The position numbers and the translations under genes are program-made. DNA of 64,000 nt from Haloterrigena sp. KLK7 (GTDB taxonomy: Archaea; Halobacteriota; Halobacteria; Halobacteriales; Natrialbaceae): contig NZ_CP149790.1 in assembly GCF_037914945.1 (NCBI RefSeq), positions 124,001-188,000 of the forward strand, read 5' to 3'. The notes below the pieces were generated by a model. That model was not told the origin of the DNA. It saw nothing but the letters and a program-made list of their open reading frames with translations, and did no database searches. Below, in pieces: positions 26,153 through 51,895 of this stretch. Within the stretch, counting starts at the first letter, position 1; each line of letters starts with the position of its first letter.

Positions 26153-26483
26153 ACGCGGGGAAGACGGCCGCTCGGACGCCGTGAATCGCGTTCACGCGAC
26201 GACCCCTCTCCACGGTGACGAACCCCGTCCGCGGCGAGTCGGGTCGGCAACCGCCCGGTTCGCGCCCGTCCGATCGCGGATCGATACCGATCACGACCGT
26301 CGTTCTCGCTATTGCAGTGACTCGAGACGGGCCGTCCGTTCGACGCGTCGACTCCGATAGCGCTCGGCGTCGAGTCGTTAGTTCGGTCCGGCGCCGTCAC
26401 ACCGTTCGGGAGCCGTCTCTCCGTCCGAAGCCGTCGCTCGAGGGTCGAACGTCGCGAAAAGTGAGCGGAGAGCGATCTCGCAG
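26153..26483. other. intergenic region between convergent beta-helix genes
   Basis: No gene is seen. Both flanking genes end here. Confidence 0.35.
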
Positions 26484-28280
26484 TTACTGGTCGCGGGCGT
26501 TGTACTGGACGTCGACGGTCGCGTGACCGCGCAGCGTGAAGTCCTCGATGTCGCCGTCGAACCAGTAGGCGTCGACCCAGTCGCCGGCGACGCCGCGAAC
26601 GGTCCGCTCCTCGATCACGTCGTCCTCGTCGATCGTGGCCTCGTCGTAAGTGGCCTTGACGACCGCGCCGCCGGCCTCGAAGGAGTAGGCGCTCGGCTCG
26701 TCGGCGTCCGTTCCGTCGACGACCAGCGCGTGGGGGAGCAGTTCGTAGTCGCCGTAGTCGGCCGGGTCGACGGCTTCGCCGTCGACGCTGACGTCGGCCG
26801 CGCCGTTGACGATCGTCACGTCGATCACCGCGCCCGAGAACCGGAACGTCCGACTCCCGTCGGTGACCGAACTCTGGACGGTCGATCCCGAGATCGTCGT
26901 CACGTCGTCGTCTCCCTCGAGTTCGATCTCGCCGTCGACCGAGAGCTCGAAACTCGTCGGCACGCCGCGGCCCGCGACCTCGAGGACGTGGGGGAGTTCC
27001 TCGCCGTAGTCGGCGGGATCGACCGCCTCGCCGTCGACCAGGACCGTTCCCGGCCCGTCGACGGTGAGTTGCTCGAGGCTGCCGTCGAACCGGAAGGCGT
27101 CCTTCCAGTCGGCGACGACGCCGTGGACCCGCCCGTCCGTGATCTCGTCGTTCGCGTCGATCGACGCGCCCTCGGCGTTCGCCGCCTCGACCTCGCCGTC
27201 GACGGTGAACTCGTATCGCGTCACGTCCGACGCGTCGCCGTCGAGGAGCACGAGGTGGGGAAGCTGCTCGTCGTCCGCGCTTTCGGCGGCCGATCCGCTG
27301 CTCGAGGCGCTTCCCGAACCGCCCGACGCGGCCGCTTTGGCCGTCGTGGGCACGCCGTCGGGAATCGAGAGATCGGGATCGTTCGAGACGTCGTCGCCCA
27401 CGGTGACGGTCGAGCCGCTCGCCCGGTGGATGGTGCCGCGGTAGGCGCCGCTCTCGAAGGTGGCCCGACCGGCCGAGCCGTTGGCGCCGGCGACCATCGC
27501 GTAGGGGTAGGGACCGTCGGCGAAGTGCGAGTCGCGGATCGTGACGTTCCCGCCCGACCAGACCCAGACGGGGCGGCCGTTGGTCTCGGTGTAGCCGCCG
27601 TAGCCGCGGCCGTAGTCGGTGGTGTCGTTGTACGCGACGCAGTTCTCGATCACGTCGTCGCCGCTCGCACAGCGGAACGTCGTGACGCCGTTGTTCTTGC
27701 CGAAGCAGGTGTCGAAGTGGACGCTGCTCGGTCCGGACGCGGTGTTGGAACAGTAGAAGGCGTTGTTCGGGAAGCCCTGCACGTTACACCGGCGGAACGT
27801 CAGGTTCGCCTGGCTCTGCTTGTGCATGAAGACCGCGCCGGGTCCGTGGACGAAGTCCGAACCGTCCTTGGTCGCGCCGTCGCCCATGTAGATGTTCTCG
27901 AAGAGGACGTCTCCGCGGTCGGCCTTGATCGAGATCAGAAACTGGTCGCCGCGGTAGAGCCCCTCGAATCCGATGTTTCGGATGACGGAGTTTGCTCCCT
28001 CGACGAGCAGCAGAAAGCCGTTCCCGGTCGTGAGGTCGATCAGCTTGTTCTCGAACGTCTCGCCGCGGCCGACCCGAACGACCTGTCCGTTCGCGCGGAT
28101 GACCTCGTAGTCCTCCGCGGCGCCGACGCTCGTTCCGAACGCCGCTGCGGCCGCCGTCGTCGCACCGGCGAGTTTCATGTACGATCGCCGGTGGAGCAAT
28201 CCACTCGTTCCGCTGTCGGTCGTCGGCGTGTCCTCGCCGACGCACCGATCGTCGTCCGCTACCGAAGAGTCGCGTGCCAT
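26484..28280 (-). CDS. Tat-exported right-handed beta-helix protein, paralog
   Basis: A 598-aa paralog of the gene at 24296, arranged convergently. The twin-arginine motif HRRSYMKLAG is at residues 30-39. A beta-helix occupies about 65-300 (IRNIGFEG, FENIYMGDG, FRRCNVQGF, IENCVAYND, IRDSHFADG). After an SGGSGSASSSGS linker come three C-terminal beta modules, two ending in AVDPADYG. The second contains GRGVPTSFELSVDGEIE, which closely matches the stand-alone protein at 34280. The start MARDSS at 28280 lies 25 bases after GTTTATGG (28306-28313, reverse). Localisation outside the cell is well supported. Enzyme activity is not. Confidence 0.82.
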   Translation of the reverse strand: MARDSSVADDDRCVGEDTPTTDSGTSGLLHRRSYMKLAGATTAAAAAFGTSVGAAEDYEVIRANGQVVRVGRGETFENKLIDLTTGNGFLLLVEGANSVIRNIGFEGLYRGDQFLISIKADRGDVLFENIYMGDGATKDGSDFVHGPGAVFMHKQSQANLTFRRCNVQGFPNNAFYCSNTASGPSSVHFDTCFGKNNGVTTFRCASGDDVIENCVAYNDTTDYGRGYGGYTETNGRPVWVWSGGNVTIRDSHFADGPYPYAMVAGANGSAGRATFESGAYRGTIHRASGSTVTVGDDVSNDPDLSIPDGVPTTAKAAASGGSGSASSSGSAAESADDEQLPHLVLLDGDASDVTRYEFTVDGEVEAANAEGASIDANDEITDGRVHGVVADWKDAFRFDGSLEQLTVDGPGTVLVDGEAVDPADYGEELPHVLEVAGRGVPTSFELSVDGEIELEGDDDVTTISGSTVQSSVTDGSRTFRFSGAVIDVTIVNGAADVSVDGEAVDPADYGDYELLPHALVVDGTDADEPSAYSFEAGGAVVKATYDEATIDEDDVIEERTVRGVAGDWVDAYWFDGDIEDFTLRGHATVDVQYNARDQ

Positions 28281-28916
28281 GCAATCGGGTAATCTGATAC
28301 TACCACCATAAACTTTCTCCTCCATTATACTTAAAATTTACAGACGATAGTTATTTCGAGAGTATAAAAGTACGAAACTACTGAAAATATGGCGCGAAAT
28401 ATTGTATTATCAGTATTCGAGATAGAACGCGCGATAATAGCGTATTACCCGCGTTGCAGCAGTTCTCCACCGCCTTTGACCCGCCCTCGGAGGGATCTCA
28501 GTGCCGAGTAATACCGTATTACCGGCCGGTTTCGGCCGTTCGGTGATAGATAGCCGCCCCGAGCCACCGGCGGAATCGCTGGGTCGGGTTCGGGGGCCGT
28601 CTCAATTCCACTGCTCAGTGCCAGTTCGAGCCGACGTCTCAGCATCGACTGCCCGTCGACTCGCGTCGGTCGGTGGTGCGGCGTCGAACTCGCGCGAGAA
28701 CGGTCTGGAAACGGCCGATCGAACGTGAATATGCGACGAACCGTCGAATCGGCGGGGAAAATCGAGGTGAGTGGAGGGAGGCGTCAGCGGGTGGGGGCTG
28801 CGTCGGCGGAGGGGCCGCGTCAGCGGGGGGAGGGTGCGTCAGCGGGGACGGCGGCGGTAGCGAACCGATCGCGGCGGCGATCGGGGAGGGGGCTGTCGAA
28901 TCGCGTCAGCGGGGAA
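28281..28916. other. intergenic region with AT-rich promoter and a small repeat
   Basis: The first ~160 bases are AT-rich and contain the promoter of the 28280 gene (GTTTATGG at 28306-28313 on the reverse strand). The far end carries five copies of a 10-base word (next entry). No gene is seen. Confidence 0.45.
28781..28912. repeat. short interspersed repeat GCGTC(A/G)GCGG
   Basis: Five copies start at 28781, 28800, 28817, 28836 and 28903, spaced 17-19 bases apart except the last. The repeat lies just downstream of the 3' end of the beta-helix gene (reverse strand). It may be a slippage-prone minisatellite. No function is evident. Confidence 0.6.
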
Positions 28917-29858
28917 TCAGTTGGAACCGGAGGCCGCTTCTTCGGCGCTGGTCGGGGTGCCCTTCGGGATGAATGCCGTGGGGTCGGTGCCCGAGTCGCC
29001 CTCGAGTCGGACGTTCGAGCCGGCGTGCTCGGCGATGCCGGCCTGGTCGTCGTAATCGGTGTCCCGGAGGACGACTTCGGTGCCCTTGCCGTTGGCGCCG
29101 GCGGCGATCGCGGTGTTGTGACCGTTCATCGAGATCTGGCAGTTCTCGACCTCGATCGCGCCGGGCGCCCAGGCCCAGATACCGCGGCCGGCGTAGCCCT
29201 CGTCGTCGACGAGGACGCTGGAGTTCGTCACCTTGCTCCCCTCGGTCGCGAGACGGAAGTGGGAGACGTAACAGTTGGCGGCGAAACAGCGGTCGATGTG
29301 GATCGTCCCGCCGGCGCCGCTCCCGGGCGCGGAGCCGTAGACCGCGTTGTCCGCGAAGCCCTGAATGTTGACGTTCTTCATGTCGATGTGACCGGCGTGG
29401 TCGGGGTTGGCCCAGAAGGCCGTCTGTCCGTGACCGCTCGAGCTGCCGTTGCGCTCGTCGGAGCCGTCGCCGAGGTAGACGTTCTCGATGGTGCTCGAGC
29501 CGCCGGCGTCGGAGATGCCGAACATCGAGGAGCCGGTGCCGGAGGTGTTGCGGCCCTTGACGCCGACGTTTCGGATCGTCCAGTCGCTGCCTTCGGTGAC
29601 GACGACGACGTCCTGACCGTTCGTCAGGTCGATCAGTTTGTTCTCCCAGGTCTCACCGTCACCGACGGTGATCGTCTGACCGCTGGCTTCGATAACCTCG
29701 TAGTCGCCTTGAGCGGCAGCCGTGCCGGCCGCGCCGAACGACGTCACCGCGGCCGCGGCCGCGGCGACCGAGCGCACGTAGTTGCGGCGGCTTAATCCGT
29801 CGTTACGGCCTGTGGTCGGCGTGGTGTCCGTCTCGGACGTACGGGGGTTCTGCGCCAT
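28917..29858 (-). CDS. Tat-exported beta-helix protein, short paralog without C-terminal modules
   Basis: A 313-aa protein with a twin-arginine signal LSRRNYVRSVAA (Arg24-Arg25) and then a single beta-helix domain (about 50-300) with turns such as IRNVGVKG, IENVYLGDG, MKNVNIQGF, IDRCFAANC and VENCQISMNG. It lacks the beta-sandwich repeats found in its larger paralogs and ends right after the PTSAEEAAS segment that elsewhere leads into those repeats. The start at 29858 lies 25 bases after GTTTATGA. It is probably the basic form of the family. Confidence 0.82.
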   Translation of the reverse strand: MAQNPRTSETDTTPTTGRNDGLSRRNYVRSVAAAAAAVTSFGAAGTAAAQGDYEVIEASGQTITVGDGETWENKLIDLTNGQDVVVVTEGSDWTIRNVGVKGRNTSGTGSSMFGISDAGGSSTIENVYLGDGSDERNGSSSGHGQTAFWANPDHAGHIDMKNVNIQGFADNAVYGSAPGSGAGGTIHIDRCFAANCYVSHFRLATEGSKVTNSSVLVDDEGYAGRGIWAWAPGAIEVENCQISMNGHNTAIAAGANGKGTEVVLRDTDYDDQAGIAEHAGSNVRLEGDSGTDPTAFIPKGTPTSAEEAASGSN

Positions 29859-30656
29859 ACACTTGCGTAACCTGGCCTTGCACTCATAAACTTTTCCTTG
29901 AGAATATGGATTAATTTTACAGAATATATTTCTAACTCTGACGAAAAGGACACAATATATGTACATTCATTCAAGAACTTATGAACAACGGGGAGACGAA
30001 ATACCGCCGAGTAACCGAGTTTTAGCGCGTAAATACGCGGTTACCACCGGGAAGAGCCGCTGTAGCGGCCGGCTCGTGAAATCGAGATCTGATCGGGGCT
30101 CGTGGGAGTGGAGACGAATCACCGCGACCGTTTCTCGGTTATTCGGCCGTTCATGTTCGACAAATTTCATCTCGCGTCCCGACGCGACCGTGGGTCGGTG
30201 CTACCAGTTCTAGGGACGGTCGGTATCGAGGGGTCATTCGGACCAGCGACGGGGCGACCGTCCACGGATTCGAACTGCGGACGCGTCCTCGAGACCACCG
30301 GCCGCGAATCGACCGGGTGGACGGCGCCTGGTCCGCCGAGATGAGAGTCGAACGGGGTCGGGGTGGACGACGACCGCCCGCGCGTCAGCGTCGGATCCGT
30401 TCCGGACCCGGCTCCTTCCAGTCGGCGAGCGTCGTCGGTCCCGCCCAGCGCCTGATAGAGTGCGGAGACGGTTGCGCGAGCGACGAGCCGCGACGGAGAT
30501 GACGAACTGCGTCGACGGAGCGTTACCGAGCCGATCGTCTATAGTGAACTAACGCGCGCGAGGGAAGCGGTGAGTAGCGACCGACCGAGCGTCGAACCCG
30601 CGGCCCGGTTCGATCCGCGACCGTTCCGGCGTGAACGGTTCGCCGAACGGCGTCGG
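29859..30656. other. long intergenic region
   Basis: About 800 bases. The first ~100 are AT-rich promoter DNA of the 29858 gene (GTTTATGA box, 29884-29891 reverse). The remainder has no protein-like frame and no RNA gene I can identify. Confidence 0.4.
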
Positions 30657-37702: not shown

Positions 37703-39316
37703 TCACTCGAGGTAGCCGAGGTCCGCCAGCCGCTTCTCGACCCCCTCGTCGGCCGTCTCGACCGACCGATCGGCGTCGAGTCGGGGATAGGATCGCGTGC
37801 CGGCCGGCTCGACACAGGGGAGCGGTTCGCCGTCCATCCGCTCGTCGTACGGGACGCCGAGCGTCGACAGGACGGTCGGCGCGACGTCGAAGAGGTGGGC
37901 GCTTCCGACGCCGGCGGCGGGGTCGATCGCCTCACCGCGGGCCGCGATCGTCCCGTCGCGTTTGTGGTTCCACGGTTCGCTCGGCGGCCCGAACTGCTCG
38001 TCGAGCAGGGTCGCCGACAGGAAGTGATCGAAGTCGGCCGGGACGGTCACGACGTCGACGGCGTCCTCGATCTCGGGGCCGTGAAAGACTTCCTCCCGCG
38101 GTCGGACCGCCTCGAAGACGGGCTCGCCGTCGGGGGTCGTCACCGAGCGCAGTTCGTCGATGAGCCGAGCCCGGACCTCCTCGTATCGCTCGGGCGGGAC
38201 GACGCCGTCGGGCTCGCGACCCTCGAGGTTGATGCGAACGCCGAGTTCGATTCGCGAGCGCACGTACGCGGCCGATTCGGGGAAGTCGACCTGCTCTGCG
38301 CCCGCGTTGACGAGCCCGTTCGGGACGCGGGCCGCGACGAGGTCGGCGATCCCGAGCCGCTCGAGGACGCCACCGATCCGCTGGCTCGTGAGCCCGAATC
38401 CGGCGGCGGTCGCCATCGCCCGTTCGGCGACGCCGGGGTCGTAGCTCGTGTCGTCCCGACCTCGCTTGAGGTTCCCGTCGCGAACCGTCGCCCACGTCGG
38501 CATGCCGTCTCCGCCGCGCTCGGTCGCGACGAACCCCTCCTCGCGGAGAAACTCGTTGGCTCGAAACTCCACGCCGTCGTACGGTCCCATCCCGTGGTCG
38601 CTGGCGATAATCACGTTCTCCGGATCGTGGGCCTCGATGATCTCCCGGAGCTCTCGGTCGACCGCGCGGTAGATCGAGCGGATCGCTTCCTCGTCGTTCG
38701 GCCGCTCGTGGAAGATCGAGTCCGTCGCCTGGAACTCGACGAACCCGAACTCGGGGTCGTCTCGGTCGGCCAGGTAGCGAAACGCCTCCCCGCGCATCCG
38801 CACGCAGTCGCTGTAGGCCCGCCCCAGATCGTCGACGTCCTCGTCGGGATAGACGCGGTACTCCCCGATCTCTTCCCGGACCTCCTCGAGTAGCCCGTCG
38901 GGATGGCAGTCGGGGTCTTCTGGCGCGGTATAGCCGGGGATCAACGTGCCGTCGAACTCCCGGGGCGGGTGCGTGACGGGGACGTTGACGACCGCGCTCG
39001 TGATTCCGTGGCGGTCGAGCAGTTCCCACAGCGACCGCTCGCGGACGTCGGTAGCGTTGACCACGTCCCAGTCGTAGCCCTCGAACCGCAGGAATCCGTA
39101 AACGCCGTGTTTACCGGGGTTCATCCCCGTGTACAGCGACGGCCACGCGGAGGCCGTCCACGGCGGGATCTGTGACTCGAGCGGGCCGCTCGTCCCGGTC
39201 CGGTAGATCGACTCCAGCGTCGGCACCTCGCCGTCGTCGAACAGCGGCGACAGGACCCGATCGCAGGCCGCGTCGATGCCGACCAACAGCGTTTGGAGTG
39301 AGGATCGGTCCTTCAT
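37703..39316 (-). CDS. alkaline-phosphatase superfamily phosphodiesterase/phosphatase
   Basis: A 537-aa protein of the type I phosphodiesterase / nucleotide pyrophosphatase group. The metal-binding start LLVGIDAACDRVL and the nucleophile region WTASAWPSLYTGMNPGKHG, with Ser or Thr at the active site, are present. So are TDSIFHE and the metal ligands of IIASDHGMGPYDGVEF. There is no signal peptide, so it is cytoplasmic or recognised in another way. The C-terminus ends LADLGYLE, which is matched by LKGLGYME in the paralog at 61466. ATG 39316 is used. CATAACGA lies 26 bases upstream. Substrate unknown. A lipid- or nucleotide-linked sugar phosphate is plausible. Confidence 0.82.
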   Translation of the reverse strand: MKDRSSLQTLLVGIDAACDRVLSPLFDDGEVPTLESIYRTGTSGPLESQIPPWTASAWPSLYTGMNPGKHGVYGFLRFEGYDWDVVNATDVRERSLWELLDRHGITSAVVNVPVTHPPREFDGTLIPGYTAPEDPDCHPDGLLEEVREEIGEYRVYPDEDVDDLGRAYSDCVRMRGEAFRYLADRDDPEFGFVEFQATDSIFHERPNDEEAIRSIYRAVDRELREIIEAHDPENVIIASDHGMGPYDGVEFRANEFLREEGFVATERGGDGMPTWATVRDGNLKRGRDDTSYDPGVAERAMATAAGFGLTSQRIGGVLERLGIADLVAARVPNGLVNAGAEQVDFPESAAYVRSRIELGVRINLEGREPDGVVPPERYEEVRARLIDELRSVTTPDGEPVFEAVRPREEVFHGPEIEDAVDVVTVPADFDHFLSATLLDEQFGPPSEPWNHKRDGTIAARGEAIDPAAGVGSAHLFDVAPTVLSTLGVPYDERMDGEPLPCVEPAGTRSYPRLDADRSVETADEGVEKRLADLGYLE

Positions 39317-39342
39317 AGGGCTGGCTCCGTCCCGTTTACCCT

Positions 39343-39350
39343 TCGTTATG
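39343..39350 (-). promoter_or_regulatory. near match to CATAACAA motif
   Basis: Reads CATAACGA on the reverse strand, 26 bases before the start at 39316. One mismatch to the shared motif. Confidence 0.4.
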
Positions 39351-39535
39351 GAGAAAATTATCGCCGACAATATCTCACTTTCCGAACACGGTTCGGTCGG
39401 CTTCGACGCCGAAACCCGAACGGAGCCGACGTCCCGGATACATAGCTCCGTACCGACGCCAGAATAGGATCTCGTCTCTCACTTCGACTACCTGAACCGG
39501 AGTCGGCCGATCCGGACGCCACCGCCCGTCGCGGA

Positions 39536-40546
39536 CTACTTGACGCTATCGTACAGCGAGGCGATCGTTCGCATTCCCCAGCTCCCGTACTCGAGGCTGT
39601 AGTAGGTCCGCAGCTCGGGGTTGAACTTCGCCTTGTACCGGTTGATACGACGGGTCTCGGCGCCGACGAGATCGTACGTCTCGAGTCCGTTCTCGAGGCC
39701 GTCCTCCATGATCGCCCAGTCGAGCAGGTCGTTGGTCGGCACGTCGACGTCGGCGTCGGTCCGGACGCCGCCCATCCATCGGCCCACGGTGTCGCCGTAC
39801 TCCAGCGCGAGGATGCCACCGACGAACTCGCCGTCGACGCTCAGCGTATACGGTTTGACGCGGCCGTTCTCCGACCGGTCGGCGAGATCGAGGACGAACT
39901 CGACCGGCACATCGAAGTCGATCCCCTGGGACTCGTACCGGTTCTCGACCTGCTCGTGGATCCGTCGAATCTCCGCGGGACCGCCGACCTCGATCTCGTA
40001 GGCGTCCTCGTCGGCGTTGCGGATGTTGCTCCGCGCGTCGCTGCTGAACGTCATCAGCAGCTCTTCCTCGTCGGGCGTGAGATCGACGCCGTAGGTGTAC
40101 TCCGGCGTCGCGTCGAACTCCTGCCACTTGAACGGCCGCGAGTCCTCGAGGGCCGGCGACGTGCGGACGTGGCCGTACTTGGGATCCAGTTCGGACTCGA
40201 TCCACTCGAAGCACCCGTCCATGAAACGCTGTCGACGCCGCTCGCGCTTCCGTTGTTTCAGCTTGCCCATGTTCAGGAAGGCCGGACCGAGATAGGGGAC
40301 CCGGAGGCTCGGCGGCGGCGAGAACGCCGTCGTCACGAACTGCTTGTCGATCTCGAAGACCGGGAAGAGCCCGACCGGCTCCTGTCCCTTGAACCCGATC
40401 AGCGGGTGTACCGCCGCGTCCGAGTGCTCGGCCTGGACCCGCAGCGCCTCGAGCTCGTGACACAGGGTCCCCTGGGGAGACTGGTCGACGTAGCCGTTCC
40501 ACCGCTCGAGGTCGTCGTCCGTCGCGATACGGACGTCGATGCTCAT
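39536..40546 (-). CDS. FemAB/GNAT-like acyltransferase
   Basis: A 336-aa protein with the tandem-GNAT fold of the FemAB-like family. A first half contains LCHELEALRVQAEH, then the loop PYLGPAFLNMGKLKQRKRE. A second half contains VDGEFVGGILALEYGDTVGRWMGG, then NDLLDWAIMEDGLE, and ends with RYKAKFNPELRTYYSLEYG. In bacteria this fold transfers amino acids to peptidoglycan precursors. Archaea lack peptidoglycan, so a sugar or lipid-linked precursor is the likely acceptor (inference). A paralog lies at 55741-56778. Start MSIDVRI at 40546. An upstream in-frame ATG adds 25 non-conserved-looking residues. Confidence 0.8.
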   Translation of the reverse strand: MSIDVRIATDDDLERWNGYVDQSPQGTLCHELEALRVQAEHSDAAVHPLIGFKGQEPVGLFPVFEIDKQFVTTAFSPPPSLRVPYLGPAFLNMGKLKQRKRERRRQRFMDGCFEWIESELDPKYGHVRTSPALEDSRPFKWQEFDATPEYTYGVDLTPDEEELLMTFSSDARSNIRNADEDAYEIEVGGPAEIRRIHEQVENRYESQGIDFDVPVEFVLDLADRSENGRVKPYTLSVDGEFVGGILALEYGDTVGRWMGGVRTDADVDVPTNDLLDWAIMEDGLENGLETYDLVGAETRRINRYKAKFNPELRTYYSLEYGSWGMRTIASLYDSVK

Positions 40547-40883
40547 GGGTTCGACCCTCCGGTTCCGGTCGCCGGACTCGATTCGCTGGGTACGCGTCTC
40601 ATGAGCGATGACTCTCTTCATGGCTACTTTGTAAGCATCCTATTACGGTCTCTCCGGCCCGCAGTTCGCCCGTCCTATCCGTTCTCGAGACGAGTGAGTT
40701 CCGCGGTCGTCGGTTCCGTCGATACGCGCCCGTCCGCCGCTCGACCGGTAATCGACTCGGAGATCCCAACCGCCCGGACCGAGGCGTCGTGGGCGGTCAT
40801 CGTCCGGTCCGCGGCGACCGCTCGCTGCGCCCCGTTCGGTCGGGACGATTCGTTCCGCATTCCCTGACTCTCGTTATCTGACC

Positions 40884-40930: not shown

Positions 40931-42682
40931 ATGAAAGGACTTCCGTTTCAGCCGTTCGCGGTGATCCGACGGCAGAGCAAGCGCCTCGCCGCGGACGTTC
41001 CGTGGGACCTGATCGGCGTCGTCTGCTTTGCCGCCGCCGCGACCGCTCTCATTACGATACTCGACGTCTCGTCGCCGCTGGTGCGGGCAGCGGTCGGAAT
41101 CCCGCTGTTATTTCTCGCCCCCGGCTACGTGACCGTATCGGCGCTGTTTCCGCGCGCGACGACCGCTCGCGGGTCGAGTGTCGACACGCGAATCCCGGTT
41201 CGGCAATCGCGGGAACTGACCGACGTCGAGCGCGCGGCGCTCTCGTTCGGAATCAGTTTCGCGCTCCTGCCGCTACTGGGACTGGCGATCATCACGTCCT
41301 CGTGGGCCCTCTCCGGCTCGGTCGTCGCGTTCTTCGTCACCTGTTTCGTCGCGGTCGGCGCCGCCGTCGCGACCGTCCGGCGGCTGCTCGCCCCCGAGTC
41401 CGAACGGTATCGGGTCGGGTTTCGCTCCCAGTTCGCGGCGGCTCGGGCCGCCCTGTTCGACGGCGAATCGACGCTCCACGCCGCCGTCAACGTCGCGCTC
41501 GTACTCAGTATGATCGTCGCGGTGACGGCCGTCGGGTACGGGCTCGTCTCCCCTCAGCAGGCCGAGCAGTACACGGACCTGCAACTGCTCACCGAAAACG
41601 AGTCGGGAGAGCTCGTCGCGTCGGGCTATCCCGAGGATCTCGAATCCGGCGACGCGGTTCCGCTGGTCGTCGCTCTCGACAACCGGGAGGGCGAGGCCAT
41701 GAACTACACGGTCGTCGTCCAGCAACAGCGAGTCGAGGACGGCGAGGTGGTCGAACGGACCGAGTTACAGCGGTTCGACACCGCGGTCGACGACGGCGAG
41801 ACCGCAGAAGAGGAGGTAACGCTCAGACCGACGGCGACCGGCGACGACGTTCGGATCTCCGTACTGGTGTTTACCGAGGACGTCCCGGAAACGCCGACCT
41901 ACGACGACGCCTACCGGCACGGTCACATCTGGACCACCGCGACCGCGGATTCGGACGTCGGCGCCGACACCGACCTCGAGTCCGGTGACGGTGAGAACGA
42001 GTCCGATGGCGGAGACGAGAACGAGTCCGATGGCGGAGACGAGAACGAGTCCGATGGCGGAGACGAGAACGAGTCCGATGGCGGAGACGAGAACGAGTCC
42101 GATGGCGGGAACGGAACCGACGCCGGAGACGAGAACGAGACTGACGACGCCGATGAGGACGGCGGCGACGATCCGTTCGACTTCGGTGACGGTGACGATG
42201 GTCCGTTCGACTTCGGCGACGGATCCGGGGACGCCGACAACGGGTCGGACAACGGATCTGACGGAGACGGCGACACTGACGGCAGTTTGGACAACGAATC
42301 TAGCGGAGATGGCGGTAGCGACGACGGATCTGGCGGCGGCGGAGACGGAGGTAGCGATGACGGATCCGGCGATGGCGGAGATGGCGGTAGCGACGACGGA
42401 TCTGGCGATGGCGGAGATGGTGGTAGCGACGACGGATCTGGCGATGGCGGAGATGGTGGTAGCGATGACGGATCTGGTGATGGCGGAGATGGCGGTAGCG
42501 ATGACGGATCCGGCGATGGCGGAGATGGCGGTAGCGATGACGGAGATGGCGGCGGCGGAGATGGCGGTAGCGATGACGGGTCCGGCGGCGATGGAGGTGG
42601 CGGCGATGGAGGTGGCGACGACGGATCCGGTGACGGTTCCACTGACGGGGACGATGGGACGAGTAACGAAACCGATGGGTGA
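40931..42682 (+). CDS. DUF1616-type membrane protein with long acidic repeat tail
   Basis: A 583-aa protein. The first ~200 residues carry four or five membrane helices with the DUF1616 pattern ([16 protein letters not shown], then [22 protein letters not shown]). An extracellular beta domain follows (about 205-345: [16 protein letters not shown], then [11 protein letters not shown]). The rest (about 350-583) is pure low complexity: five GDENESDG units, then many copies of a [12 protein letters not shown] unit. The tail should be disordered and highly negative outside the cell, perhaps acting as a spacer or calcium-binding surface. DUF1616 genes are often found near archaeal glycosylation genes. 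AATAACAA precedes the start by 39 bases. Confidence 0.82.
41992..42111 (+). repeat. 24-base tandem repeat, five units, inside the DUF1616 gene
   Basis: Near-identical units start at 41992, 42016, 42040, 42064 and 42088, each encoding ENESDGGD in one phase. The DNA is almost unchanged between units, which points to recent slippage or recombination. Confidence 0.85.
42314..42601 (+). repeat. 36-base tandem repeat, eight units, inside the DUF1616 gene
   Basis: Units start with GGTAGCGA at 42314 and every 36 bases up to 42566. They encode a Gly-Ser-Asp-Asp-Gly-Ser-Gly-type repeat with silent variation between copies. Confidence 0.8.
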
Positions 42683-43076
42683 TCGCGTTCGGTAGCGAAT
42701 CGGCGTTCGGTTTCGAGTCAGTACCGATCGTTCTCGAGCCGCGAGGGCAGACTCAGGCACTATCGATGACCCAGCGGAGAGTCGCTTCGACCAGCAGTCG
42801 CGACTCGCGTGGGGCACTGCGACGGGCGGTCGCCCCGGAGTCCGTCGCCGGCCTCACTCGAGGCTAGTCGGTCGCGAGTCGACCGTCGCTAGCCGCCCCC
42901 TTACTGCGCTCCATTGCTACGGGACGCCCCGATAGTTGCTCCTCGACCCCGCCGGTCGCGAACCGCTCTCAGGCTCCGAAACCGGTGGAGAGACGGTTAA
43001 TTGCCTCCATAACAATGACTCTCCGAGTGACTGTTTTCGGTACGGACTATTCGACTACCTACGCACCTCAGAACAC
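42683..43076. other. intergenic region
   Basis: No gene is seen. It contains the exact CATAACAA motif at 43008-43015. Confidence 0.4.
43008..43015 (+). promoter_or_regulatory. CATAACAA motif
   Basis: An exact copy in the direction of transcription, 61 bases before the start at 43077. Confidence 0.55.
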
Positions 43077-44201
43077 ATGTCACCAATCGATAAGATTCCC
43101 GCGATCGGAACGGATTCAGTCACCACCGCGCTCGTAGTGATCGCCCTGATTACGGCCGGAGCGACGGTCGGTACCGGCTCCGTTGCGGCCCAATCCGCAC
43201 AGTCGGGCGGGGACGAATACGCGGTCGTACAGGACGGTGAGTGTTTCACCATCGAAGCGTTCGGCGACGGCTCACAGTCAGTCGAGGAGTTCTACGACTA
43301 CCGAACCCCGGAGACCGAGCCCAGCTCGTATCTGTACGGATCCTTCGGAACGCAAGAGCTCCAGGAGGACGATACGAGCAATCTCTTCCTGTACAACGGC
43401 AGTGAGGGCACCAGTCTCGTGGTCGTCCACGATCAGGTCGAGGGGAACTCGTCGGGCGCCGCCGTGACGATGCAGTTCGACGGGTTGCCCGAGGACGGCG
43501 AGTGGGCCGTCGAGGACGACAATTACAGCGAGCACCTCGGTGACGGTCCCTTCGACGAATTCGAACGCGACGGCACGTCGAGTCGCGCCACCTGGGTCTA
43601 CACCGACAACCGATCTGACGGCGGTGCGTTCCGCGGCCTCGAGGGCGATACCAACGTGACGATCGATCCCGCGTTCAACGACGACGCCGACTTCCGGCTG
43701 TACGAGGGCCAGATCACCGAGTGGAGGGCGCTCTCACCGACCGACGATGGGTACGAGGAAACGTCGCTCGACATGGACGAGCCGGTCGAGATCCGGTCCG
43801 GTTCGTGTACGTCCGTTACGGCGACCGACCTGGAGACGGACGAATCGGTGTCGGCGGGCGACGACCTCGGGATCGAAGCCACCGTCGAGAACGACGGCGC
43901 TATGAACGGGACGTTCGAGGTCCCGATCACCGTCGACGGCGAGGTCGTCGACGAACGCGAGGTGACCCTCGAACCCGGTGAAACGACGACGGTATCGACG
44001 ACGGTGACCCTCGAGGAAGCGGGAACGTACACCGTCGGCGTCGCGGGCGAGACGACCGAGGTGACCGTCGACGGCGAGGGCGGATTGGACGTCGACGGCG
44101 AGGGCGGATTGGACGAGGAACTGCCCGGATTCGGCATCGGTAGTACCATCGCGGCGCTGGCGACACTGCTCGCGCTCTCGCTCGCACGGTATCGACGGTA
44201 G
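43077..44201 (+). CDS. secreted PGF-CTERM surface protein (first of tandem pair)
   Basis: A 374-aa protein. The N-terminus has a signal-peptide-like hydrophobic stretch (TALVVIALITAGATVGTGSVAA). A novel beta-rich domain with EYAVVQDGECFTIEAFGDG and VEEFYDYRTPETEPSS spans about 45-245. Two cysteines (ECF and SGSCTS) could form a disulphide. A CARDB-like beta-sandwich follows (about 250-335: ESVSAGDDLGIEATVENDG, then EVTLEPGETTTVSTTV). The C-terminus carries the archaeosortase A signal LPGFGIGS, a membrane helix and an RYRR tail. It should therefore be cleaved and lipid-anchored on the cell surface. A close paralog follows at 44602. Confidence 0.85.
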   Translation: MSPIDKIPAIGTDSVTTALVVIALITAGATVGTGSVAAQSAQSGGDEYAVVQDGECFTIEAFGDGSQSVEEFYDYRTPETEPSSYLYGSFGTQELQEDDTSNLFLYNGSEGTSLVVVHDQVEGNSSGAAVTMQFDGLPEDGEWAVEDDNYSEHLGDGPFDEFERDGTSSRATWVYTDNRSDGGAFRGLEGDTNVTIDPAFNDDADFRLYEGQITEWRALSPTDDGYEETSLDMDEPVEIRSGSCTSVTATDLETDESVSAGDDLGIEATVENDGAMNGTFEVPITVDGEVVDEREVTLEPGETTTVSTTVTLEEAGTYTVGVAGETTEVTVDGEGGLDVDGEGGLDEELPGFGIGSTIAALATLLALSLARYRR

Positions 44202-44601
44202 CGGTCCGCGATAGGAGGTCTCGTCTCCGCGTTCCGACTCGACTCGAATCCCGTTCTTCGACGTCGGTGCGGGAGTTCGACCGTCGACGGCTCGCCGGTT
44301 CTCGCTCGAGTCGCCCGGATCGACGATCCGTATCGCTTGCTCCGTTCCTCCCGTCGAATGGGCCGACTAATTCGCGGCGGGAACCACAGACGGGCTCCCG
44401 TTCGGACTCTCACCGCGGTTTTCACCGAGGACAGCAGCACCTCGCGAATACCGGTACCGTAACGGAAACACGACATTAAATTCAGCCCGTACTATTCTCA
44501 CGCATACAAGTAATATATATCATATATTGGGTAGAATACCCGAGCGAGAAATACTGTCATAACAATCTACGTGATCCACATCGGCAGGGCTGTAGCGAAC
44601 G
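44202..44601. other. intergenic region between tandem paralogs
   Basis: No gene is seen. AT-rich near 44500-44530 with the near-palindrome AATATATATCATATATT. It contains the CATAACAA motif at 44558-44565. Confidence 0.4.
44558..44565 (+). promoter_or_regulatory. CATAACAA motif
   Basis: An exact copy in the direction of transcription, 36 bases before ATG 44602. Confidence 0.6.
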
Positions 44602-45663
44602 ATGACACAGGACGATACTCTCGTACGGAAGTCGGTTCTCACGACGGTCGTTGTGGTTATCGCGTTCACGCTCGCCGCGCCGTTCGGCACGGCGACGGTC
44701 GGAGCGACCACCACGCCACCGTCAGATACGGACGAATACGCGGTCGTACAGGGTGACGAATGTTATACGATCAAACCGATCGGTGACGGCCACCTGACTG
44801 CCGAGGAGTTCTACGACTACCGGGACCCGGATACGGAGCCGAGTTCGCACTCGTATAGTTCACACGGGACGCGGCATCTTCAGGAGAACGACGCCAGTCT
44901 CCTCTTCCTGCACGAGGGGGGTGACGGCCTCAGTCTCGGCGTCGTCCACGACCGGCACGGCGGCGGCTCGGAGGGCGGTGCGGCGACGATGACCTTCACT
45001 GACCTCCCCGAAAACGGCGAGTGGGTCGTCGAGGACGACGCCTACGCCGACCGCGACGACGAGTTCAGCCATCGGAACGGCTCGAGTCGCATCACGTGGG
45101 TCTACGGTGCAAACCGGACCGACGGCGGCGTGTTCAACGGCGGCCTGGACGACGAGTTCTCGATCACGATTCAGCCCCGGTTCAACGAGGATGCCGCTTT
45201 CCAGCAGTACGACGGCGAACTCACCGATTGGCAGGTGATCTCGGGCAACAGCACCGGACACGAGCGAATCTCGCTTAACATGAACCAGCCGATCGAGATC
45301 CGGTCCGGCGGCTGCACCTCGTACGCGGTCTCGGAGCTCGACATCGACGAGTCGGTGACTACCGGCGAGTCGACCGCGGTCGAAGCGACCGTCGAGAACA
45401 ACGGCGTGTACGCCGAGACGTTTACCGTCCCGATCACCGTCGACGGTGAAGTCGTCGACGAACAGGAGGTGACCCTCGAACCCGGCGAGACGGCGACCGT
45501 GTCCTCGTCCGTGACTCTCGAGGAAGCGGGAACGCACACCGTCGGCGTGGCGAACGAAACGATGGACGTGACTGCGGATGATGGCGAGCAACTGCCCGGA
45601 TTCGGCGTCGGCGTGGCGCTGGCGGCACTACTGATCGCATTCGTCGCTCGCGTCCGCCCGTAA
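44602..45663 (+). CDS. secreted PGF-CTERM surface protein (second of tandem pair)
   Basis: A 353-aa paralog of the preceding protein, with clear similarity over the whole length: EYAVVQGDECYTIKPIGDG, EEFYDYRDPDTEPSS, IEIRSGGCTS and the CARDB-like part EVTLEPGETATVSSSVTLE. Signal peptide near residues 11-34 and C-terminal LPGFGVGV plus helix and a short basic tail, so it is also a predicted archaeosortase substrate. Both cysteine positions are kept. The two genes have separate upstream motifs, so a recent duplication including the promoter is likely. Confidence 0.85.
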   Translation: MTQDDTLVRKSVLTTVVVVIAFTLAAPFGTATVGATTTPPSDTDEYAVVQGDECYTIKPIGDGHLTAEEFYDYRDPDTEPSSHSYSSHGTRHLQENDASLLFLHEGGDGLSLGVVHDRHGGGSEGGAATMTFTDLPENGEWVVEDDAYADRDDEFSHRNGSSRITWVYGANRTDGGVFNGGLDDEFSITIQPRFNEDAAFQQYDGELTDWQVISGNSTGHERISLNMNQPIEIRSGGCTSYAVSELDIDESVTTGESTAVEATVENNGVYAETFTVPITVDGEVVDEQEVTLEPGETATVSSSVTLEEAGTHTVGVANETMDVTADDGEQLPGFGVGVALAALLIAFVARVRP

Positions 45664-45955: not shown

Positions 45956-46885
45956 CTAGTCAGCCCGGCCGGCGACGTCCCGATAGACGTCGTGTATCCG
46001 ATCGGCCATCCGGTCCGTGCTGATCTCGTCGGCGTGGTCGCGCCCGTTCGAGCGCTCCCCTCGGTTGAGAATCGCGCTGAGCGCGAGTCGGAGCTCCCGG
46101 TCGTTCCGACAGACCTCCGACGGCGTCACGCCCTCGAGACGCTCCCGGACGTCCCCGACGTCGACGGAGACGACGGGCAGGTTGCAGGCCATCGCCTCCT
46201 TGACCACGTTCGGCGACCCCTCGCGTTCGGAGGTCAACAGGAGACAGTCGGCGGCGTTCATGTACAGCGGCATCTCTTCGTGTGGAACGTCCCGGGCCGT
46301 CCGGAGGTACACCGGCTCCGAGACGTCCTCGCGGACGTCCTCGACGATCCGTTCCGCGCGCGGGTAGTTCTTCACCGTGCGTTCGGCCTTGTACGGGAAG
46401 AGGACGTGCTTCGCGTCCGGCTCCCAGCCGAGCCGATCGATCGCCTCGGACCGGGCCATCGGCTCGAACAGATCGAGGTCGATCCCGTGGGGAATCACGT
46501 GGCAGTCCGCTCCGAGGTCGCGTTTCATCCCTTCGGACATGACGATCGTCGCGTCGCAGAAGTTCGCACAGAACTCGCTGATCCATCCGAGGTCGCCGTC
46601 CAGGTCCGTCCCCCACAGCGACAGCACGACGGGGAGCCGCGGTTGTGCCAGCGCGAACGGTGCCGTGAGGCCGTAGTTGGCGTGAACGAGATCGTACGAC
46701 CCGAGCGATTCCTTCAGTACGGTCGGGTGAAAGCGCAGGTAATCGATCACCGAGCGGCTCGAGTCCGCCGTTACCGTTCCCGGTACCGAGACCGTCGTAC
46801 ACTCCACGCCGCGATCCTCGAGGGCCTCGACCTGGAGCTCGAACGGCGGCGAGTTCTCCTTCGATGTCAGGTTCAGAACGTTCAT
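45956..46885 (-). CDS. GT4-family glycosyltransferase
   Basis: A 309-aa GT-B glycosyltransferase. The N-terminal half includes YDLVHANYGLTAPFAL and LSLWGTDLDGD. The linker VIPHGIDLDLFEP and the nucleotide-sugar site TSEREGSPNVVKEAMACNLP (E-x7-E) are typical of family GT4. It would add a sugar from a nucleotide donor on the cytoplasmic face, here to a surface polysaccharide or lipid-linked glycan. The protein is short for the family (usually 350-400). Start MNVLNLTSK at 46885. CATAACAA lies 43 bases upstream. Confidence 0.9.
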   Translation of the reverse strand: MNVLNLTSKENSPPFELQVEALEDRGVECTTVSVPGTVTADSSRSVIDYLRFHPTVLKESLGSYDLVHANYGLTAPFALAQPRLPVVLSLWGTDLDGDLGWISEFCANFCDATIVMSEGMKRDLGADCHVIPHGIDLDLFEPMARSEAIDRLGWEPDAKHVLFPYKAERTVKNYPRAERIVEDVREDVSEPVYLRTARDVPHEEMPLYMNAADCLLLTSEREGSPNVVKEAMACNLPVVSVDVGDVRERLEGVTPSEVCRNDRELRLALSAILNRGERSNGRDHADEISTDRMADRIHDVYRDVAGRAD

Positions 46886-46928
46886 CGTCCTCTGAGAGTC
46901 TCTCTTCGAAATACGCGGACCGGACGGT

Positions 46929-46936
46929 TTGTTATG
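46929..46936 (-). promoter_or_regulatory. CATAACAA motif
   Basis: An exact copy on the reverse strand, 43 bases before the GT4 start at 46885. Confidence 0.6.
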
Positions 46937-47057
46937 TCGCGACTGAGAGCGGCCGCCGGTCGCGGTCGTCGTCGACCGACGACCGTCACCGAACCGGCGT
47001 CGAACGGCGGCCGTCGGTCGAGCCGGATATCTGGTGACTAGAGACATTCATCGGCGC

Positions 47058-49564: not shown

Positions 49565-51895
49565 ATGGCACGCGAACCTGAAGATCAGGGAATCTTAAAT
49601 TCCACTGACAAGAGAACTACTGGTGCGGAAGACGACGGTAAGAGTCCGTTACTGGACCGACGGTCGTATCTCAAACTGACTGGAGCGACCGCCGCCTCGG
49701 CCGTGGCGGCGACCGGCATGACCAGCGCGGCTAACGACTACGACGTGATCGAAGTCGGCGCCGGCGAGACGTTCCGGAAGGACCTCTCCAGCGGCGAGAC
49801 GTGGGAGAACGTCCTCATCGACATTACGGCGCAGGGCGCCAGCTACCGAATCACGGCGACGGCCGACAACTGGGCGATCCGGAACGTCGGTATCCGCGGG
49901 CAACTCGACTCGACGCCCGGTTCGCAGAACTTCGTCGTCTCCGTCCCCAGCAGCGGTGCGAGCGGTCTCATCGAGAACGTCTACCTGCCGGGAACGTCGT
50001 ACTCGCGGTCCACGTCGCCGTTCCCCTCGGGGATCTACGTGCACTTCAACCACGCGGGCGACCTCGAGGTCAGGAACTACTACGCCGCGAACCTCCCCTC
50101 GCACGGGATCTACGGGAGCGACCCCGGGAATCGGAACAACAACGGGAACGGCGGAACGGTTCGTATCCACGATTCGTACGTCGCGGACACCGAAAACTCC
50201 GGGTTCCGTATCGGATCGGACGGTTCGTACGTCGACAACTGCGTCTCGTTCAGGACCGTCCGCGGCCTGTGGTCGCGGTGGGCGAACACCGAGGCCCGCG
50301 GCTGTGACTTCGGCGACAACAACACCGACATCGTCGTCGGGCAGTCGGGCTACAGCCAGTCGTCGACGGTCACCCTCGACGGAACCACGTGCTTCGGGTC
50401 GGTCATCGAGGCCAACGGGAGTCTGAACGGGAGTTCGGCCGGCACTCCGGAGGAGCGAATCCCTGAGGGTTGTCCCGAGACGGCGGAAGCGGCGGCGAGC
50501 GGCGGCCAACCCGTGAACCTCGAGGACCTCCCCGAAAACACGCTGACGATCACCGGACAGGGCGAACCGACGAAGTATCACTTCGAGACCTCCGGCGAGC
50601 TCGCGCAAAATCCCGAGCGCGGCGATCTGCAGCGCCACGACGCCATCGACGGCACGACCGCCAGCGGCTGGGTGACGCGAACGAACAACGTCGACGGCTA
50701 CCGGTTCGACGGCGAACTGGTCGACCTCGGCTTCGATCAGGGCGTGGCGACCGTCACAGTCAACGGTCAGGAGGTCGATCCCGCCGACTACGGCGTCGAC
50801 GCCAGCGAAGCCGATTCGGAGCCCGAGGCCGATCACACGCTGACGATCACTGGCCAGGGCGAACCGACGAGGTATCACTTCGAGACCTCCGGCACGATCG
50901 AACGCAATCCCGAGCGCGGCGACCTGCAGCGCCACGACACCATCGACGACACGACCGCCAGCGGCTGGGTGACGCGAACGAACAACGTCGACGGCTACCG
51001 GTTCGACGGCGACCTGCTCGAGGTCGGCTTCGAGCAGGGCGCGGCGACCGTCGAACTCGACGGCGAGGAGATCGATCCCGCCGACTACAACGGAGAAGCG
51101 GCGCTCGACAACCTCCTGCTGGTCGACGGCGTCGGCACCTCCGGCGGCACGCGCTACGAGTTCGCCGTGAGCGGTGCGGCCGAGAAGTCCGACGAGAAGG
51201 GTGCGACGATCGACGACGCGGACGTCATCGACAGCGGCACCGTCACGGGCTCCGTCGCCGGCTGGCGCGACGCCTTCCGCTTTAGCGGTGACCTCGAGGA
51301 TCTCACCGTCGACGGTTCGGCGCGCGTCTACGTCAACGGCGAGCAGGTCGATCCGAGCGACTACGGCGCGGAGCGACCCCACGTGCTGACCGTCGTCGGC
51401 AACGGTTCGCCCGCGAACTACGAGGTGACCGTCGACGGGACGATCGATAAAGCGCTCGGCGACGGTTCCGACGAGACCGCGATCCGCTCGGAGACCGTGG
51501 CCGAGGGCTCGATCGAACGCGGCGTCCAGCGGTTCCGGTTCTCCGGGACGATCAGCGACTTCACGTTCGTCGAGGGCTCGGCGCACGTCTACGTCGACGC
51601 GGAGCGTCTCGATCCGGACGAGATCGGTGACGCCGATCTGCTGCCGCACGCGATCGTTATCGACGGCACCGAGGCCGACGGCGAGTCGACGTACTCGTTC
51701 GAAATCACCGGTGACGTGATCGCGTCGAACTACCGCGACGCCACGGTCGACGAGGACGACGCCATCGAGGGGACGTCCGTCACTGCCGCCGTCGACAGCG
51801 GACTGGACGCCTACTGGTTCGACGGTGATATCGTCGACTTCCGCCTCGCCGGCGACGCCGATGTCGACGTCGAGTACGACGTTCGCAGCCAGTAA
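49565..51895 (+). CDS. Tat-exported beta-helix protein with five or six C-terminal beta modules
   Basis: A 776-aa protein, the largest of the family. Twin-arginine signal DRRSYLKLTG (Arg32-Arg33). Beta-helix about 60-300 (IRNVGIRG, IENVYLPG, VRNYYAANL, IHDSYVAD, ARGCDFGDN), then a TAEAAASGG linker. Then five to six beta-sandwich modules follow. The first two (about 320-410 and 420-510) are nearly identical, both containing GDLQRHD and TASGWVTRTNNVDGY. Several modules end in VDPADYG-type motifs, and the C-terminus is VEYDVRSQ. The number of modules differs between paralogs (0, 1, 2-3, 3 and 5-6), which suggests variable-length stalks or binding units. Expected to be extracellular. Ligand unknown. 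Confidence 0.82.
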   Translation: MAREPEDQGILNSTDKRTTGAEDDGKSPLLDRRSYLKLTGATAASAVAATGMTSAANDYDVIEVGAGETFRKDLSSGETWENVLIDITAQGASYRITATADNWAIRNVGIRGQLDSTPGSQNFVVSVPSSGASGLIENVYLPGTSYSRSTSPFPSGIYVHFNHAGDLEVRNYYAANLPSHGIYGSDPGNRNNNGNGGTVRIHDSYVADTENSGFRIGSDGSYVDNCVSFRTVRGLWSRWANTEARGCDFGDNNTDIVVGQSGYSQSSTVTLDGTTCFGSVIEANGSLNGSSAGTPEERIPEGCPETAEAAASGGQPVNLEDLPENTLTITGQGEPTKYHFETSGELAQNPERGDLQRHDAIDGTTASGWVTRTNNVDGYRFDGELVDLGFDQGVATVTVNGQEVDPADYGVDASEADSEPEADHTLTITGQGEPTRYHFETSGTIERNPERGDLQRHDTIDDTTASGWVTRTNNVDGYRFDGDLLEVGFEQGAATVELDGEEIDPADYNGEAALDNLLLVDGVGTSGGTRYEFAVSGAAEKSDEKGATIDDADVIDSGTVTGSVAGWRDAFRFSGDLEDLTVDGSARVYVNGEQVDPSDYGAERPHVLTVVGNGSPANYEVTVDGTIDKALGDGSDETAIRSETVAEGSIERGVQRFRFSGTISDFTFVEGSAHVYVDAERLDPDEIGDADLLPHAIVIDGTEADGESTYSFEITGDVIASNYRDATVDEDDAIEGTSVTAAVDSGLDAYWFDGDIVDFRLAGDADVDVEYDVRSQ
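50540..51090 (+). repeat. near-identical tandem DNA repeat, 297-base period, inside the beta-helix gene
   Basis: The segment 50540-50790 recurs at 50837-51087 with long identical stretches (for example around CTGGGTGACGCGAACGAAC). Similarity at DNA level, including wobble positions, is much higher than to the other modules, so this is a recent duplication or gene conversion. Confidence 0.8.

Follow-up and report, generated by a model that had tools for sequence, protein, structure and literature searches.

A repeat-built acidic tail with N-glycosylation sequons on a predicted DUF1616 membrane protein of Haloterrigena sp. KLK7

The closest described counterparts of the protein analyzed here are members of arCOG02884, the DUF1616 family, such as HVO_2173 in H. 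volcanii and MMP0360. In the available parts of PMC5898192 and PMC6393860, these proteins are described as consisting of a transmembrane (TM) region and an extracellular Ig-like domain, and arCOG02884 is assigned, from gene neighborhoods other than the one presented here, to a predicted secretion or remodelling complex; the neighborhood proposed for this complex includes arCOG01314 (DUF4350), a MoxR ATPase, and a vWA protein (PMC5898192). An N-glycosylated member of the family is known: according to the available part of PMC8241124, HVO_2173 carries four AglB-type N-glycosites (83 spectra), and the hvo_2160 to hvo_2173 cluster, to which it belongs, encodes five N-glycoproteins of unknown function.

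Two further kinds of surface proteins offer partial likenesses. Staphylococcal SD-repeat proteins (ClfA/Sdr) also contain an in-frame minisatellite coding for an acidic, disordered surface repeat, and their SD stalks sit between the ligand domain and a C-terminal wall anchor; no sequence relation is claimed. The haloarchaeal S-layer glycoprotein and PGF-CTERM proteins are extracellular, acidic, and N-glycosylated by AglB, with a low-complexity segment before a C-terminal anchor. The copy number of SD repeats has been reported to be unstable (PMC3324548, available in part).

The gene described here lies in a 64,000-nt stretch of contig NZ_CP149790.1 (hereafter, the window; Table 1). Its product is consistent with the description of arCOG02884 and adds to it a long repeat tail with an array of sequons; five TM segments are predicted, as compared to two or four in the available part of PMC5898192. 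In contrast to the SD-repeat MSCRAMMs, the repeat is archaeal, carries candidate N-glycan acceptor sites, and represents the free end beyond the ectodomain rather than a stalk before a wall anchor, since the tail is the last element and no TM segment follows it (the protein terminates in NETDG directly before the stop codon). While the predicted extracellular position, the acidity, and the AglB-type sequons are shared with the S-layer glycoprotein and PGF-CTERM proteins, no anchor follows the tail here. In the literature searched, repeat tails of DUF1616 proteins were not the subject of any paper.

Table 1. Features of the DUF1616 locus, in window coordinates.
Feature	Coordinates	Strand	Details and evidence
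Type I phosphodiesterase/nucleotide pyrophosphatase family gene, conserved neighbor	37703..39370	-	Pfam, relatives
FemAB/GNAT-like gene, divergent, conserved beside DUF1616	39536..40621	-	Pfam, relatives
DUF1616 (PF07760) membrane protein gene	40931..42682	+	583 aa, ATG start; Pfam match
DUF1616 domain match, five predicted TM helices and ectodomain	41018..41935	+	Pfam, hydropathy, model
Predicted extracellular beta-sandwich, CARDB/FnIII-like, residues 216-338	41576..41944	+	AlphaFold, Foldseek
Predicted disordered acidic C-terminal tail, residues 346-583	41966..42679	+	Composition, charges, model
24-bp array, x4.8, unit ENESDGGD with one NES sequon	41993..42108	+	TRF, 100% matches
30-bp array, x2.2, PFDFGDG at residues 415-421 and 425-431	42158..42222	+	TRF
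36-bp array, x7.9, 12-residue unit without Asn	42303..42587	+	TRF, 89% matches
15-bp array, x2.8, Gly/Asp	42584..42625	+	TRF
CARDB-domain protein, likely secreted, encoded downstream on the same strand	42936..44201	+	Pfam, tblastn
Paralogous CARDB protein with PGF-CTERM sorting signal	44602..45663	+	Pfam
Glycosyltransferase group 1 gene	45956..47047	-	Pfam

Architecture of the protein and its repeat tail

A reading of the window from its sequence only had recognized the protein as DUF1616, and the Pfam profile search confirmed this assignment (PF07760, residues 30-335, E = 3.1e-94; 316 bits against a curated cut-off of 31.6, covering profile positions 1-306 of 307). Hydropathy and the helices of the structural model place TM segments near residues 25-45, 49-72, 98-122, 129-153, and 181-206. 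Loops 74-103 and 149-183, like the N-terminus, carry positive charges, which places these parts inside and thus suggests that the C-terminus is outside the cell. In an AlphaFold model built with a 27-row alignment, both the helical part and the beta-sandwich are confident, and the tail block has a pLDDT of ~37-52. The sandwich follows TM5 directly, and hydropathy, charges, model, and fold matches together give the arCOG02884-type layout, i.e., a TM region followed by a predicted extracellular Ig-like domain. In structure searches, the sandwich matched the CARDB domain of PF1109 (Foldseek TMt 0.65-0.69) as well as other fibronectin-like folds (rows near Z 10-12); this fold is common, and the model-based match says little about function. 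A sigma-70 type scan is uninformative for archaea.

Residues 347-583 (237 residues) contain 90 Gly, 72 Asp, 30 Ser, 16 Glu, 11 Asn, and 7 Thr, with 4 Phe, 3 Ala, 2 Leu, and 2 Pro as minor residues; residues 346-583 include 89 Asp or Glu and no Lys or Arg. The extremely acidic Gly/Asp/Ser/Glu/Asn repeat tail described in the sequence-only reading, there with 230 residues and here with ~240 aa, is thus present, as are its five 24-base and eight 36-base units, which correspond to the x4.8 and x7.9 arrays (TRF scores of 444 and 232 were obtained, against a threshold of 50). Its description of these arrays as almost perfect holds for the 24-bp array, in which four 24-mers are identical and the fifth presents two base differences when read unit by unit, but not for the 36-bp array (89% matches), and the two different arrays that it named are accompanied by two more short ones (30-bp and 15-bp). 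In the 4.64-Mb genome, the back-translated pattern of the 24-bp unit occurs only at the four array copies, indicating that this array was not borrowed from another gene; sharing of the array with other genes was therefore rejected. The 36-bp unit (at most two mismatches) occurs at 18 genomic places, including 10 in the tail and eight scattered single copies on other contigs.

The extended negative chain outside the cell that had been envisaged for this tail agrees with the five predicted TM helices, the positive-inside loops, and the low pLDDT of the tail. A function in spacing the protein from the membrane was rejected; the ectodomain (residues 216-338) follows TM5, and the tail, as a free end beyond the ectodomain, cannot space the ectodomain from the membrane.

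Sequons and turnover of the tail

The N-glycosylation sequons and a short hydrophobic motif were overlooked in the earlier reading. All 11 Asn in the tail (N356, 364, 372, 380, 388, 394, 402, 437, 441, 455, and 579) are in N-X-S/T sequons, as compared to 1.7 expected from shuffles; the sequons of the first array are copies of one sequon, and with the arrays collapsed eight of eight Asn are in sequons (1.25 expected). Across 28 tails (tails of at least 25 aa, with the window arrays collapsed and the duplicates L002, L034, and L091 and shorter tails omitted), 43 of 51 Asn were found in sequon context, whereas the corresponding D-X-S/T context accounts for 87 of 798 Asp (Fisher 3e-30, a nominal value since the rows are related). 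The tails of Natrinema salsiterrestre and Natrinema hispanicum are among those with sequons. The ectodomain presents two further sequons (N223 and N258, two of its three Asn). By comparison, sequons account for only 9/97 Asn in nine window proteins that match intracellular or transmembrane families, from which their location was inferred (AlkP 1/11, GNAT 0/11, GT4 1/13, TFB 0/12, flippase 0/11, epimerase 2/9, second GNAT 2/10, second AlkP 2/10, and third GNAT 1/10); the values for the two CARDB proteins are 7/12 and 4/12, and that for an unassigned protein at 24296 is 4/26. A homologue of STT3/AglB is present in the genome, and the protein thus combines, as an N-glycosylated surface protein would, sequons above chance on the predicted outer side with an available oligosaccharyltransferase. 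Judged from the sequence, the first array is likely to represent an N-glycan ladder with one site per eight residues. The larger, 36-bp array contains no Asn, however, and Asn is also absent from many acidic tails (e.g., L037-L039, L046, and L062), so glycosylation does not explain every tail.

A constant tail in relatives, which the sequence-only reading had named as the finding that would speak against it, was not observed; tail length and sequence vary between related species, the genome sets containing one genome per species, such that all comparisons are between species. While 123 of 125 family genomes presented a DUF1616-like match, the best matches in the remaining five genomes of this genus are at most 40% identical, and the nearest orthologues (50-59% identical) are from other genera, including some named Natrinema, Natronorubrum, and Halosolutus. 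In a plasmid collection, the best match was a DUF1616 gene of Halosolutus gelatinilyticus (71% DNA identity over 49%), and no same-species record was found. Among the relatives read, some orthologues have no tail (0 aa), and the longest tail measures 156 aa. In a set of 56 orthologues, from which more distant DUF1616 proteins (L082-L086, L089, L090, and L092-L096), weaker matches of genus-mates (L006-L028), and duplicates were excluded, a tail of at least 40 aa is present in 18, with at least nine changes of this trait on the tree; most of these orthologues lack a long tail, suggesting that it is dispensable for the core function.

Tails of 156 and 4 aa were found among orthologues with 74-75% core identity, and differences in length are also seen at closer range. 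Of nine close pairs, with cores 87-95% identical and both tails at least 25 aa, eight differ in tail length (46/55, 122/107, 56/36, 36/29, 56/29, 59/36, 59/29, and 59/56 aa), although six of the nine come from a single group of four Natrialba-like rows; when independent groups are counted, three out of four vary. The pair of equal length (85/85 aa; 90% core identity), which comes closest to a within-species comparison, consists of two proteins from genomes both named Natrinema hispanicum, with substitutions between their tails; aligned tail parts of close pairs are 51-83% identical. Counting the window protein, 24 tails measure at least 40 aa; TRF arrays, with different units, were identified in 19 of them, and 10 of the 24 contain an array with a score of at least 100. 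Two Halovivax-type tails (L079 and L081) present a conserved basic/hydrophobic end, AGFDGDIGLRLLGR, unlike the other, acidic ends.

These observations suggest that the tail is a disordered, polyanionic surface chain on the DUF1616 protein, built by slippage and open to glycosylation, a reading to which we give slightly better than even credence. The same turnover would also be compatible with a neutral filler, i.e., acidic sequence made by slippage at a tolerant C-terminus, negative as haloarchaeal surface proteins must be and without specific function; neither the length nor the sequence of the tail is conserved, close orthologues may have or lack one, and the arrays are recent and species-specific. 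Such a filler would not be expected, however, to place Asn in sequons far above chance when Asp of the same tails is not so placed, to retain a hydrophobic motif in tails that are otherwise unalignable, or to maintain the reading frame and the near-absence of Lys and Arg; we consider this explanation doubtful, though far from negligible.

The hydrophobic motif and the gene neighborhood

Of the 23 tails that are at least 50 aa long, nine contain the motif [FL][DE]x[ILVF]F[GD] (0.009 expected). Because this pattern was drafted from those 23 tails, it was later checked on 40 newly fetched loci, selected because their open frames were long or their rank was high; here, two of five tails of at least 50 aa contained the motif (0.011 expected). 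Both motif-bearing check tails are in family f1, one of the five tails (L167) is not acidic, and no acidic tail of at least 50 aa was found outside f1 among the 40 loci. In a third check tail (L199), a near form is present at the extreme C-terminal end, which reads LDDLIGSLFGDDEDD; in L082, L089, and L090, the motif is also located near the protein end. The strict DNA pattern DPFDx[FILMV]F[GDE]D matched four places in the 125 genomes, all in DUF1616 tails by coordinates, and its reversed control matched none in these genomes. The window protein contains the related PFDFGDG twice, which is found nowhere else in its own genome; judging by these letters, the window copy is diverged and duplicated, and the exact motif of the relatives is absent. 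Testing the motif by local hydrophobic excess gave weak results, with 7 of 23 tails reaching p under 0.05. No description of this recurring motif was found in the literature searched.

The recurrence of the motif in both sets of tails, as well as the confinement of its strict form to the DUF1616 gene in 125 genomes, would fit a docking arm: the tail would chiefly hold out the motif for a partner belonging to an envelope or secretion complex, and the repeats would only set its reach; the complex proposed for arCOG02884 in the available part of PMC5898192 points in the same direction. However, the motif is absent from many tails (e.g., L045, L046, and L039) and altered in the window, and the partner is a candidate only, making this explanation rather unlikely in our view.

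The region around the DUF1616 gene contains glycan-synthesis genes, including the FemAB/GNAT-like and phosphodiesterase-family genes, a GT4 glycosyltransferase gene, an asparagine-synthase-like gene, and genes for a Wzx-like flippase and a UDP-GlcNAc 2-epimerase, instead of the DUF4350 (arCOG01314), MoxR ATPase, and vWA genes, none of which were found by Pfam among 30 window protein queries. The divergent GNAT and phosphodiesterase genes adjoin DUF1616 at an identity of at least 65% in 11 of 14 orthologous regions (L097 and L100-L112; the exceptions are L100, L103, and L111), and CARDB homologues are located nearby in 7 of 14. The two tandem CARDB paralogues in the window (42936-45663) are 57% identical; the first, which has a C-terminus of a similar LPGFG type and a small 24-bp array (x2.1, 44066-44115), probably starts at the ATG at 43078. 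In the 56-row set, a long tail was present in 10 of 12 orthologues with a strong CARDB neighbor and in 8 of 44 without (raw Fisher 6e-5), but this association was not significant in a sign test that took the tree into account, where starred branches gave only four independent pairs, and is retained as a lead only. A strong CARDB neighbor was also found beside 9 of 10 sequon-bearing tails, with too few independent pairs on the tree.

A second, tailless DUF1616 gene (L003, G000:C4:64265-65173) is located on the same 212-kb contig, ~100 kb away, and many relatives contain two DUF1616 genes ~30-40 kb apart that flank a glycan gene region. Also in the window, a 297-bp unit (x1.9, 89% matches) is present at 50538-51088 within a 776-aa ORF, and four Pfam-poor proteins (24296, 26484, 28917, and 49565; 24296-29966 and 49565-51895), gave tblastn matches at shared positions in related loci, which makes them look like a repeated family.

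A bolder proposal is that Natrialbaceae-type DUF1616 proteins have repeatedly gained slippage-tuned N-glycan-ladder tails, with an embedded hydrophobic docking motif that recruits the adjacent CARDB glycoproteins, and would thus act as length-variable, mucin-like organizers of a coat set by repeat number; we regard this proposal as speculative and rather improbable.

Cation binding and the proposed role of the tail

Calcium binding had also been suggested for this tail. In a search for calcium-loop motifs, the array-collapsed tail presented two EF-hand/dockerin-like loops (0.79 expected, p 0.18), one RTX-like loop (2.27 expected), and no TSP3-like loop (0.42 expected); binding through dedicated loops is thus not borne out, and the many acidic residues might bind cations unspecifically. 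A polyanionic brush that binds calcium or magnesium, bridging the S-layer or holding divalent cations, would be in line with 90 Asp and Glu and no Lys or Arg in a tail of 243 residues, but known loop motifs are not above chance and any such polyanionic chain would bind cations unspecifically in brine; we consider a brush of this kind unlikely. Repeat arrays are prone to assembly error and a single genome of the species was seen, but a miscount of repeats by the assembly, like a cytoplasmic tail resulting from inverted topology, appears very unlikely. Analogous tails are present in independent genomes, the positive charges are in loops that place the C-terminus outside, and HVO_2173 is N-glycosylated (PMC8241124, available in part).

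In the glycosylatable surface chain that we favor, five TM helices would hold a CARDB/fibronectin-like ectodomain against the membrane, with a free, disordered, polyanionic tail of ~240 residues outside the cell. The arrays and the comparison between species suggest that replication slippage of in-frame repeats lengthens and shortens this tail, and the sequons suggest that the tail may serve as an acceptor for N-glycans from the AglB oligosaccharyltransferase at up to 11 sites, with five acceptor sites eight residues apart in the first array. The mid-tail motif (PFDFGDG twice in the window; PFDxxFGDD-like in relatives) would be a likely docking site for a partner, and the adjacent CARDB proteins might, tentatively, be candidates for this role. 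The result would be an archaeal mucin- or SD-repeat-like, sugar-bearing chain in a family thought to be part of an envelope or secretion complex.

The tail therefore resembles, as far as sequence comparison can tell, a rapidly evolving surface chain that bears sugars; a spacer or a dedicated binder of calcium would be a poorer description. While a repeat-built acidic surface tail is of a known kind, the contrast between Asn and Asp in sequon context and the recurrent motif add interest. If the tail does carry glycans, a single gene would allow a haloarchaeon to alter the number of its surface glycans through simple repeat slippage, in parallel to some bacteria that vary their repeat-bearing surface proteins; this would also offer a handle on what the widespread DUF1616 family does, and on the recurring hydrophobic motif.
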